Shown piece after piece: positions 53,300-57,034 of a stretch of 64,000 nt of DNA; positions within the stretch are counted from its first letter, which is position 1, and the number at the start of each line of letters is the position of its first letter. This DNA is from Actinoplanes nipponensis (GTDB lineage: Bacteria; Actinomycetota; Actinomycetes; Mycobacteriales; Micromonosporaceae). The notes under the pieces are model-generated. The model was not told the DNA's origin and did not search any database. It was given only the letters and a program-made list of their open reading frames with translations. The DNA lies in the NCBI RefSeq assembly GCF_016862275.1, contig NZ_BOMQ01000026.1, positions 124,001 to 188,000 of the forward strand, read 5' to 3'. A program made the translations under genes and the position numbers.

Positions 53300-53340
53300 C
53301 CGCCCGGCCGCCGGGTGGTCGTGCCGGAGCGCGTCGGACA
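53281..53340. repeat. 18-base direct repeat at the end of the DHA2 gene
   Basis: The sequence GCCGGAGCGCGTCGGAYA occurs at 53281-53298 (within the last codons and stop of the transporter) and at 53323-53340, with one mismatch (T or C). A short local duplication is the simplest explanation. Confidence 0.85.
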
Positions 53341-53356
53341 ACCGGGCGCCGGTCGG

Positions 53357-53393
53357 TTGCGGAATACCGCAAGCCGATTGCGGAATACCGCAA
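53357..53393. repeat. Two identical 16-base palindromes, 21 bases apart
   Basis: TTGCGGAATACCGCAA occurs at 53357-53372 and again at 53378-53393. Each has 6-base arms around AATA. Centre spacing is 21 bases, two turns of the DNA helix, as in paired operators. The site is between the ends of two convergent genes, so a terminator or RNA-hairpin role is also possible. Confidence 0.9.
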
Positions 53394-53413
53394 CGCCGGC
53401 GCGGGACGTCATT

Positions 53414-53456
53414 GTTCGCGACGGCCACCGGCAGACCTCCGGTGGCCGTCGCGAAC
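53414..53456. terminator. Perfect 18-base-stem hairpin
   Basis: GTTCGCGACGGCCACCGG (53414-53431) and its exact complement (53439-53456) flank a 7-base loop. It lies 33 bases beyond the stop of the minus-strand repeat-peptide gene and downstream of the plus-strand DHA2 gene, so it could end transcription from both sides. No T-tract. Confidence 0.7.
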
Positions 53457-53489: not shown

Positions 53490-53603
53490 TCAGCGGGTCG
53501 GCCCCGCCCAGACCGTCGGGCCGGCCCAGCGGCTCGGTCCGGCCCAGACCGTCGGACCAGCCCAGGCGGTGGTGGTGGCGGTGGTGGTGGCGGTGGTGTG
53601 CAT
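53490..53603 (-). CDS. Repeat peptide gene: Thr/Ala leader and four WAGP-xx hexapeptides
   Basis: An ATG at 53603 with AGGGGAG 5 bases upstream opens a 37-codon frame. Residues 1-13 are MHTTATTTATTTA; residues 14-37 are four hexapeptides, WAGPTV, WAGPSR, WAGPTV, WAGPTR, so the larger unit is a 12-residue WAGPTVWAGP(S/T)R twice. The two 36-base units differ at five positions; four are silent wobble changes in Ala and Gly codons (GCT/GCC, GGT/GGC, GCC/GCG, GGA/GGG) and one is Ser/Thr. This pattern suggests selection on the peptide. No known family is recognised. The gene is divergent from an MFS transporter and is followed by an 18-base-stem hairpin. It could be a multi-core precursor, a secreted peptide or a structural repeat; no processing enzyme is adjacent. 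An alternative is that the repeats are non-coding. Confidence 0.55.
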   Translation of the reverse strand: MHTTATTTATTTAWAGPTVWAGPSRWAGPTVWAGPTR

Positions 53604-53620
53604 GGCAGCTCCCCTCGTGA

Positions 53621-53638
53621 AAGGACACTTGCGTCCTT
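53621..53638 (-). promoter_or_regulatory. Hairpin in the leader of the repeat-peptide gene
   Basis: On the minus strand AAGGAC-GCAAGT-GTCCTT forms a 6-base stem followed by TT, about 10 bases before the ribosome binding site of the repeat-peptide gene. It could act as an attenuator or an operator. Confidence 0.35.
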
Positions 53639-53767
53639 CGGCTTGGCGGCGACTTTACGCACGACGGCGCGGGGAGGGAATGCCTGAGAACTGTTCGGCA
53701 ACCGACAGTGGACGGCGGCCCGGAATCGGCGCATCATTCGGGGAACGCCAAGCCACGGGGGGCTCTG

Positions 53768-54976
53768 ATGGCGCTTTCTCTGCTGCTCACCCAGCCGGAT
53801 TTCGGCCGCTACTGGGCGGCGCGGCTGGTGTCGTACGCCGGCGACCAGATCGCCCGCACCGCGCTGCTGATCGCGGTCTTCGACCGTCACGGCGGCGCCG
53901 CGCTGGGGCTGCTGCTCATCGCCGGCACGGCGCCGCGGCTGCTCGGCCCGGCGCTCGGCGCGCTCGCCGACCGCTTCGACCAGCGCCGCATCATCGTCGT
54001 CTGCGACGTCGCCCAGGCCCTGCTGTACGTGGCCATCGCGGTGCTCGCCCCGCCGGTGCCGGTCCTGCTCGCGCTGGTCGCCGCCGCGGCGACGGCCGCG
54101 ACCGCGTTCACCCCCGCGGGCCGCAGCCTGCTCCCGCGGCTGGTCGCGCCCGACCGCCTGGGTACGGCCAACGCCCAGCTCGCGGTCGGCGTGAACCTGG
54201 GCTTCGCGGCCGGCCCGGCGCTCGGCGGCCTGCTGCTGGCCGGGCTGGGCCTGGCGCCGACGCTGCTGCTGAACGCGGCGACCTTCGTGGTCTCGGCGAG
54301 CCTGGTCGCCGGCCTGCGGACGCTGTCAAGTCCGGCGTCGGCCGGGGCGCGCCCGTTCGGGGTCATCCTGCGCGAGGGCCTGACGACGGTGCACGGCAAC
54401 CCGGTGGTCCGCGCGGTGGCGACGGGTTTCCTGGTGATGGTGGCGTTCGCCGCGCTGGACAACGTGGCGCTGGTCCCGTTCGCCCGGGCCGGCCTGGAGG
54501 CGAGCGCCGCGCAGATCGGCCTGCTCGGCTCCCTGTACGGCGCCGGCATGGTCCTGGGCCCGCTGCTGGTCGCCCGGGCCCGGATGGACCTGGTCCTGTA
54601 CGCGGCGTTCGCCGCGCTGAGCGTGGGCACGCTGCTGACCGGGGCGAGTTCCGTGCTGCTGCTGGCGTTCGCCGGTCAGGCGCTGGCCGGCGCGGGAGCG
54701 GGCTGGCACAACGTCGCCGCGGACACCCTGATCCAGCGGCACGTGCCGGCCGACCGCCTGGGCACGGTCTTCGGCACCGTCTACATGTTCCCGTACGCGG
54801 CGGAGCTGATCGCGTACGCGGCCGGCGCCGCGCTGCTGACCGCCGTGGGCGGCCGCGGCCTGCTGCTGATCTCGGGCCTGGGCGTCGCGGCCACGCTCGG
54901 CGTCGTCGGCCCGCTGCTGGCCCGGGCGCTGCGCGGGGCCGCCGCCGCACCGCAGCCCGCACCTGCCCTGACCTGA
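53768..54976 (+). CDS. MFS transporter (MFS_3/enterobactin-exporter-like)
   Basis: A 402-residue membrane protein with about 12 helices. It begins LLLTQPDFGRYWAARLVSYA, with GDQIARTALLIAVFDR, ALADRFDQRRIIVVCDVAQA and PAGRSLLPRLVAPDRLGTAN, typical of the EntS-like MFS_3 group that exports metabolites or siderophores. The ATG at 53768 has GGGGGG 6 bases upstream. It is divergent from the repeat-peptide gene, with 164 bases between the starts, so export of that peptide or its product is a reasonable but untested idea. CTGAC occurs four times in tandem across its stop codon (54968-54987). Confidence 0.92.
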   Translation: MALSLLLTQPDFGRYWAARLVSYAGDQIARTALLIAVFDRHGGAALGLLLIAGTAPRLLGPALGALADRFDQRRIIVVCDVAQALLYVAIAVLAPPVPVLLALVAAAATAATAFTPAGRSLLPRLVAPDRLGTANAQLAVGVNLGFAAGPALGGLLLAGLGLAPTLLLNAATFVVSASLVAGLRTLSSPASAGARPFGVILREGLTTVHGNPVVRAVATGFLVMVAFAALDNVALVPFARAGLEASAAQIGLLGSLYGAGMVLGPLLVARARMDLVLYAAFAALSVGTLLTGASSVLLLAFAGQALAGAGAGWHNVAADTLIQRHVPADRLGTVFGTVYMFPYAAELIAYAAGAALLTAVGGRGLLLISGLGVAATLGVVGPLLARALRGAAAAPQPAPALT

Positions 54977-56890: not shown

Positions 56891-57012
56891 GCTGCACCCC
56901 CGGCGGGCCGCACCCCCGGCGGGCCGCACCCCGGCGGGCCGCACCCCGGCAGGCCGCACCCCGGCAGGCCGCACCCCGGCAGGCCGCACCCCGGCAGGCT
57001 GGTCCCCGGCAG
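56891..57012. repeat. 15-base tandem repeat, 8 copies
   Basis: Eight consecutive copies related to GCCGCACCCCGGCAG. The first two are 16 bases (one extra C) and copies four to seven are identical. The array starts 22 bases past the stop of the minus-strand exonuclease gene. Because the period is a multiple of three, all frames through it read as 5-residue repeats (for example LPGCG), which are not taken as coding. Confidence 0.95.
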
Positions 57013-57034
57013 GTGAGCCGCCCGGACCACCGGC

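Follow-up and report, generated by a model that had tools for sequence, protein, structure and literature searches.

We report that a small gene on the minus strand of the window (53490..53603), by which we mean the whole 64,000-nucleotide stretch of Actinoplanes nipponensis DNA that was analysed, encodes a W-x-G-P repeat peptide of 37 aa, and that its constant partner is a head-to-head gene for an MFS exporter (53768..54976, plus strand). The original prediction of a selected peptide gene adjoining an exporter is strongly supported by mostly silent divergence and by linkage at 21 of 22 close orthologues of the exporter. As judged from sequence comparison, the peptide family is real and has not been described before. 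We favour, with a probability of roughly 45%, the reading that the two genes form a peptide/exporter unit, the exporter serving to move the peptide, whole or as hexapeptide fragments.

The repeat peptide gene

The product of the frame at 53490-53603 (minus strand, ATG start; MHTTATTTATTTAWAGPTVWAGPSRWAGPTVWAGPTR followed by a stop codon) has a Thr/Ala-rich N-terminus of 13 residues and then four hexapeptide units, the C-terminal 24 residues being WAGPTV-WAGPSR-WAGPTV-WAGPTR, exactly as predicted for a 37-codon frame with WAGP hexapeptide repeats. The two 36-base halves of the repeat differ at five sites, of which four are silent and one gives a Thr/Ser difference; the same counts had been claimed before. 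A pattern of two W-x-G-P units ending in GPTR-stop had a single match in the window, and none of 100 shuffles contained it. Folding of the coding stretch was no better than that of shuffles (z 0.12), and by inspection the window peptide has no hydrophobic N-terminal Sec signal, the homologue N-termini being Thr/Ser/Ala- or Gln/Lys-rich. The peptide had been placed outside known families and our searches agree with this: three peptides gave no family match in NCBIfam and Pfam (the best match had a chance-level E of 0.48) and one peptide gave no match in PHROGs. Moreover, a literature search on motif strings including WAGPTR returned nothing relevant to the peptide-exporter system.

A Shine-Dalgarno-like sequence, GAGGGGAG (53609..53616, minus strand), precedes the ATG; the site, which had been called strong, is present but moderate rather than very strong, since its best match to GGAGGA is 4/6 bases. 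GGAGGA-like sites (4-6 of 6 bases) are found 5' of the peptide ATG in 21/21 homologues. The divergent intergenic region between the peptide gene and the MFS exporter gene spans 164 bp (53604..53767, with the start assigned by us).

On its other side the peptide gene is convergent with a DHA2-type MFS gene, distinct from the MFS gene at 53768-54976 (+), and a perfect 18-bp hairpin lies between the two (53414..53456, z -5.3). The hairpin is thus real, but the claim that it belongs to the peptide gene is less clear, since the stem lacks a U-run and is positioned between two convergent genes; it is probably a bidirectional terminator that serves both. A structured RNA at 53331-53456 was considered on the basis of a single sub-threshold Rfam match (asX3, E 0.084, 20.3 bits vs 40), which was taken as chance. 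Between the convergent genes there is also a palindrome-like 16-mer, TTGCGGAATACCGCAA, at 53357-53372 and 53378-53393, 5 bp apart, with no further copy in the whole genome even at one mismatch. Elsewhere in the window we noted a 15-bp tandem array at 56898-57013 (7.7 copies, 95% matches) just 3' of a minus-strand frame, which we take to be exonuclease-like, and at 1978-2592 heptamer/octamer arrays (GCCGGTG, CGGGTCGG, CAGGTCGG and ACCGGTG) clustered around a 130-bp repeat (3.1 copies).

The MFS exporter gene

The partner had been described as a divergent MFS exporter of the EntS type. The divergent MFS gene is indeed there, but its match to EntS (E 1.5e-17, 63.7 bits vs a cut-off of 324) is weaker than that to TIGR00900, the best NCBIfam match (E 3.2e-41, 141.9 bits vs a cut-off of 319.6), and both are below the curated cut-offs. 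A weak local match was obtained to NF041056, a ryptide-export MFS (E 2.5e-6, 26.8 bits vs 575), and among PDB sequences only SLC37A4 was matched (E 0.006-0.007), which was not used. Motif C, a signature of antiporter-type exporters, reads GFAAGPALGG in the window protein, and motif A together with motif C (G-x3-GP-x2-GG) was found by pattern in 21/21 unbroken close orthologues; in the distant MFS of genome G135 the same pattern test did not find motif C. The two motifs suggest that the partner is of the exporter type.

Of 397 genomes sampled across the order, eight were matched by the MFS N-terminus at E<=1e-22, each of them a Micromonosporaceae genome, and the close orthologues occurred only in Micromonosporaceae in the samples searched; among plasmid records, searched with the low-complexity filter on, the MFS N-terminus had no match. 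In a tree of 22 MFS proteins (omitting the frameshifted protein of G275 and seven distant proteins missed at extraction), all 20 peptide-linked proteins are on one side of a branch with support 90/81. Only G342 and G135 lie outside, with a long-branch warning, and the tree evidence is therefore weak.

Occurrence of the peptide family

The homologue search was anchored on the MFS and covered 67 genomes of the window's genus and 354 genomes of the family. In the genus, the MFS was matched at E<=1e-40 in 5/67 genomes, the window's own included; G052, G018 and G063 (69-70% MFS identity) have an upstream divergent small frame ending in WAGPTR-stop, and G046 (40% identity) has no small repeat frame upstream. 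In the family, the MFS N-terminus was matched at E<=1e-14 at 48 places in 44/354 genomes, and the close orthologues (E<1e-31) account for 22 places, i.e. four in the window's genus, 17 in Micromonospora (g23) and one in g39. Searching beside the MFS in these relatives gave a head-to-head W-x-G-P peptide gene at 21 of the 22, G342 being the single close-orthologue locus without one; the linkage is to one MFS clade. No peptide gene was found at the nine more distant MFS places checked (L097-L104 and G046, out of 26). Stops, frameshifts or a broken start were not seen in the relatives, all 21 homologues having an ATG (starts assigned by us) and an open frame.

The 21 peptides are 20-60 aa long, and the start codons of peptide and MFS are 163-214 bp apart in 21/21 homologues, where starts were assigned with a hand-made pattern and the spacing of 202 in G254 is counted from the first Met (223 from an internal Met). 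C-terminal Arg is present in all 21 in a scan that did not require it (in the later peptide-extraction and locus-mapping tests it was a search condition), and 17/21 end in W-x-GPTR. The number of W/Y-x-G-(P/A) units, as counted by script, varies between two and seven per peptide. Micromonospora N-termini are MSTSTNA-like or MATTTTTTTT-like; that of the window peptide is also Thr-rich, the other three Actinoplanes N-termini differ, and no N-terminal leader, which would be short, is conserved across the two genera. In two loci (L084 and L089, from G208 and G273) a stop codon occupies the place of the Trp of a further W-x-GPTR unit, with VGPTR or IGPTR beyond it, which suggests that stop codons, in addition to repeats, alter how many units a peptide has.

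The protein sequence is under selection. Comparison of silent and non-silent change, which had been suggested as a check, gave mostly silent divergence with a pN/pS of 0.14 over six pairs (53.5 synonymous changes in 246.5 sites and 20.5 non-synonymous in 671.5), the pairs being chosen by us so that no genome is shared, which does not prove them independent. Among the Micromonospora pairs listed (pN below 0.14) pN/pS ranges from 0 to 0.53, and the sole Actinoplanes pair listed, G018/G063, has 0.99 over 20 codons with an uncertain repeat alignment.

The pattern of two units ending in GPTR-stop gave seven matches over 84,980 species, all of them family members: Actinoplanes sp. TBRC 11911, Paractinoplanes durhamensis, P. 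tereljensis, Micromonospora humi, M. fulviviridis and the Micromonospora strains MP36 and MA102. These coincide with G052, G018, G063, G189, G181, G254 and G187, and all have the MFS; since the pattern requires the GPTR end, WPGATR types escape it. A pattern search of the 354 family genomes gave 17 matches in 9 genomes vs 4 in 2 for a backward control pattern, and a match in G211, which consists of identical 18-mers inside a longer arginine-rich frame, was dropped. A GPG-aromatic pattern gave 0 matches in 394 class genomes, but no genome with a known peptide of this type appeared in that draw, which therefore lacked a positive control. With the 37-aa peptide as query against its own genome and the genus, the only true member among 36 loci checked (L002-L037) was L010 in G018, and six other loci among them with at least two motifs were set aside as frames in which G+C at position 2 exceeds that at position 3; the true member in G052 ranked low (E 0.146) among the matches outside these loci. 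One peptide gave no match among plasmid and phage records, where the BLAST low-complexity filter may hide repeats.

Peptide and MFS genes as one unit

Both the MFS and the peptide gene are present in 11/11 mapped Micromonospora loci, and the pair adjoins a CRP-type gene in all 11; a DUF7210-like gene is located on the MFS side in 9/11 and was not hit in G227 and G254. By the same test the peptide gene was found in 0/13 loci picked for having no close MFS orthologue, among which G149, G198 and G232 have a distant MFS elsewhere in the genome; a looser look gave single W-x-GP units in three of the 13, in arginine-rich frames, and these were taken as chance. The flanks of G187 and G188 align (90.7% over 367 bp on one side, 97.8% over 785 bp on the other), and between them G188 has 6 bp where G187 has ≈1,750 bp (boundary +/- ≈20 bp), a stretch that yielded no gene other than those for the MFS and the peptide. 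As judged from this clean indel of ≈1.75 kb the two genes behave as one unit.

In Actinoplanes the pair has other surroundings, and the only further shared gene seen, in 2/4 loci, is DUF5317-like. In G063 (L072, 9212-9844) and G018 (L073, 9190-9879) the peptide gene is followed on the same strand by a gene for a small membrane-like protein, presumably DUF5317-resembling. In G275 (L070, 8428-9650) the MFS reads as two frames because its length differs by 2 bases from that in G189, with an identical peptide; this frameshift may be an assembly error.

In line with the original prediction that no modifying enzyme is adjacent, none was seen to recur across the two genera in eight loci within ≈7.5 kb, and no dedicated protease was seen among the genes neighbouring the pair; these neighbours were inspected by eye using the first 60 residues of frames of at least 70 aa, without profile search.

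A second carrier of the motif

The DUF7210-like protein has Pfam matches below cut-off in 6/9 members (best E 6e-4) and a single PHROGs match, to a head-tail connector (E 0.03); one such protein gave no match among phage records with the low-complexity filter on, and no literature on DUF7210 was found. A match was present in 214/354 family genomes and, at E<=1e-4, in 0/67 genomes of the window's genus. We examined 73 rows (including two duplicates), of which 32 belong to a Micromonospora type whose IGPG tail lacks the aromatic motif. Among the other 41 tails, which were picked across genera from the listed matches and not at random, 37 carry one or more aromatic-x-[GS]-[PE] motifs and 31 carry two or more; when the tails of the 73 rows were shuffled, two or more motifs arose in 42/14,600 cases (0.3%, with an upper bound of 0.5% were the 41 the source of every one). 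Examples are a tail with five YVGPT (the maximum), one with four WAGPT and one with three WIGPT; L159, L163, L175 and L183 are among the loci with such units. Copies within a tail are mostly the same variant, as if they had spread by duplication.

The tails thus resemble the peptide in their W/Y-x-G-P-(T/G/S) units, often repeated, and the IGPG type in Micromonospora mostly has a poly-Thr stretch as do the Micromonospora peptides. The protein differs in having a conserved N-terminal domain of ≈38 residues, longer and often acidic spacers, and a cyclase-type/CRP-type locus, with most carrier genomes being without the MFS. In 9/9 further loci (eight other genera plus G155) it is flanked by a cyclase-type and a CRP-type gene, both named by inspection without profile search. 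Given this constant position the DUF7210-like gene appears to be long established, the MFS unit next to it having come in or been lost. In Micromonospora a tie between tail type and the peptide-MFS unit was considered and rejected, the IGPG tail being the same with and without the unit. G342, with the MFS and no peptide gene, carries three YVGPS on the neighbouring DUF7210-like tail, and the free peptide could have derived from such a tail, Thr runs being common to both in Micromonospora.

Aromatic-x-G-P looks like a family-wide short linear motif. It is conceivable, if somewhat doubtful, that aromatic-x-Gly-Pro-(Thr/Gly/Ser) serves as a molecular address of the Micromonosporaceae, present in many copies on the tails of a conserved small protein at a cyclase/CRP-type signalling locus and also as a free, exporter-coupled peptide made up of the motif, in which case the pair would represent an internal binding code in a form that is mobile, secreted or in competition with it.

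Possible function and alternatives

We propose that the small, probably disordered multi-unit peptide and the MFS exporter, transcribed divergently from it, function together as a unit. If translated in vivo, the peptide would be cleaved by general host proteases into W-x-G-P-T-R and W-x-G-P-G-(Y/F) fragments; the exporter would carry the peptide or its fragments out of the cell, where they might act as a signal or an antagonist, and the pump would also hold the internal peptide level low. The linkage argues that peptide and pump are one unit, with a role as cargo as the suggested consequence. Export would fit the constant exporter partner, the lack of any other gene recurring across the two genera and the repetition of units as separate products would be repeated; that the unit and the C-terminal Arg are kept while unit number varies is expected where each unit is a product. 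Microcin C offers a precedent for a ribosomal peptide that leaves the cell through an MFS pump (PMC7680869). At 20-60 residues the peptide is a large substrate for such a pump, and the reading therefore has to assume cleavage. Against export are the MFS without peptide in G342, the pN/pS of G018/G063, the intact peptide beside a frameshifted MFS in G275, and the fact that neither a dedicated protease nor a modifying enzyme was noticed in the neighbourhood.

That the motif also occurs in the tails of a small protein, presumably a cytosolic one, points to a role in binding rather than to a product for export, and the peptide might then stay in the cytosol as a multivalent short-linear-motif ligand, its W-x-G-P units binding the exporter or a partner of the DUF7210-like tails and thereby switching or scaffolding the exporter. 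Variable copy number with a fixed unit, as seen in the peptide family, is typical of multivalent motifs, and the enrichment of repeated motifs in 31/73 tails over shuffled tails points the same way, as do the YVGPS units next to the peptide-less MFS of G342. However, the window's genus keeps the peptide-MFS pair in four genomes and has no DUF7210-like match, the MFS is possible in at most 44 of the 214 genomes with such a match, and many tails have acidic spacers whereas the peptide units are basic and mostly unspaced; we consider such a ligand possible but rather unlikely. The short N-terminus (Thr-rich in most) followed by Trp/Tyr/Arg/Pro repeat units, together with the adjacent MFS exporter, could also belong to a multi-core RiPP precursor whose maturation enzyme is encoded elsewhere in the genome and whose exporter is the MFS. 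This is improbable given that neither an enzyme (eight loci, by eye) nor a leader was seen to be shared across the two genera and that two genes take part in the indel and in the change of surroundings.

A run of Trp codons with a hairpin after it, and the same-strand gene downstream in G018 and G063, would suit a Trp-rich leader peptide that controls a downstream gene by attenuation, but the next downstream gene is convergent in the window, in 11/11 mapped Micromonospora loci and (by reading) in G052, and the MFS partner, being divergent, is not on the peptide transcript; gene order largely refutes this very improbable option. That the repeat arose by chance in non-coding G+C-rich DNA might be argued from low-complexity translations of a like kind elsewhere in the genus, in frames with G+C at position 2 above position 3; it is refuted by the 21 open homologues at the same place, the mostly silent change and the 0/100 shuffles, and its probability is negligible.

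Were the peptide exported, as we prefer to think, the pair would count among very small units for peptide secretion, consisting of a single unmodified repeat-peptide gene and a single MFS pump, located outside any biosynthetic cluster and of a sort missed by enzyme-directed genome mining. Were the motif instead an internal address, it would represent an unrecognised binding code in an antibiotic-producing bacterial family. On either reading the motif is short and easily synthesised, which allows a direct search for its reader.

Comparison with known systems

The TIGR00900 H+ antiporter subfamily and EntS are the best NCBIfam matches of the window MFS, which differs from them in scoring below both cut-offs and in having close orthologues only in Micromonosporaceae in our samples. 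Tandem units (2-7) of the kind that a multi-core RiPP precursor might carry are present in our peptides, behind a short N-terminus that differs from one genus to the other. The weak local match relates the MFS to ryptide exporters, but it is far below the cut-off of that family, and ryptides are described as radical-SAM RiPPs of streptococci (PMC13361665), while no radical SAM gene was noticed near the pair in gene lists inspected without profile search.

In microcin C a ribosomal peptide is exported by what is described as an MFS pump, which a table in the same article labels an ABC exporter (PMC7680869). Its peptide gene is given as 21 bp (PMC6795089), and it has dedicated nucleotide-adding enzymes (PMC6495379) and self-immunity enzymes (PMC7680869). 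The precursor has seven residues versus two to seven repeat units here, and here the peptide and MFS genes are head-to-head. We do not file the pair as a microcin C member because neither nucleotide-adding nor immunity enzymes were noticed among the neighbouring genes, whose lists were read without profile search. By analogy, microcin C (the MccA heptapeptide and the MFS pump MccC) would still be the closest known system that works alike, with a tiny ribosomal peptide gene and a dedicated pump, a partnership that in the present family appears as linkage at 21/22 loci.
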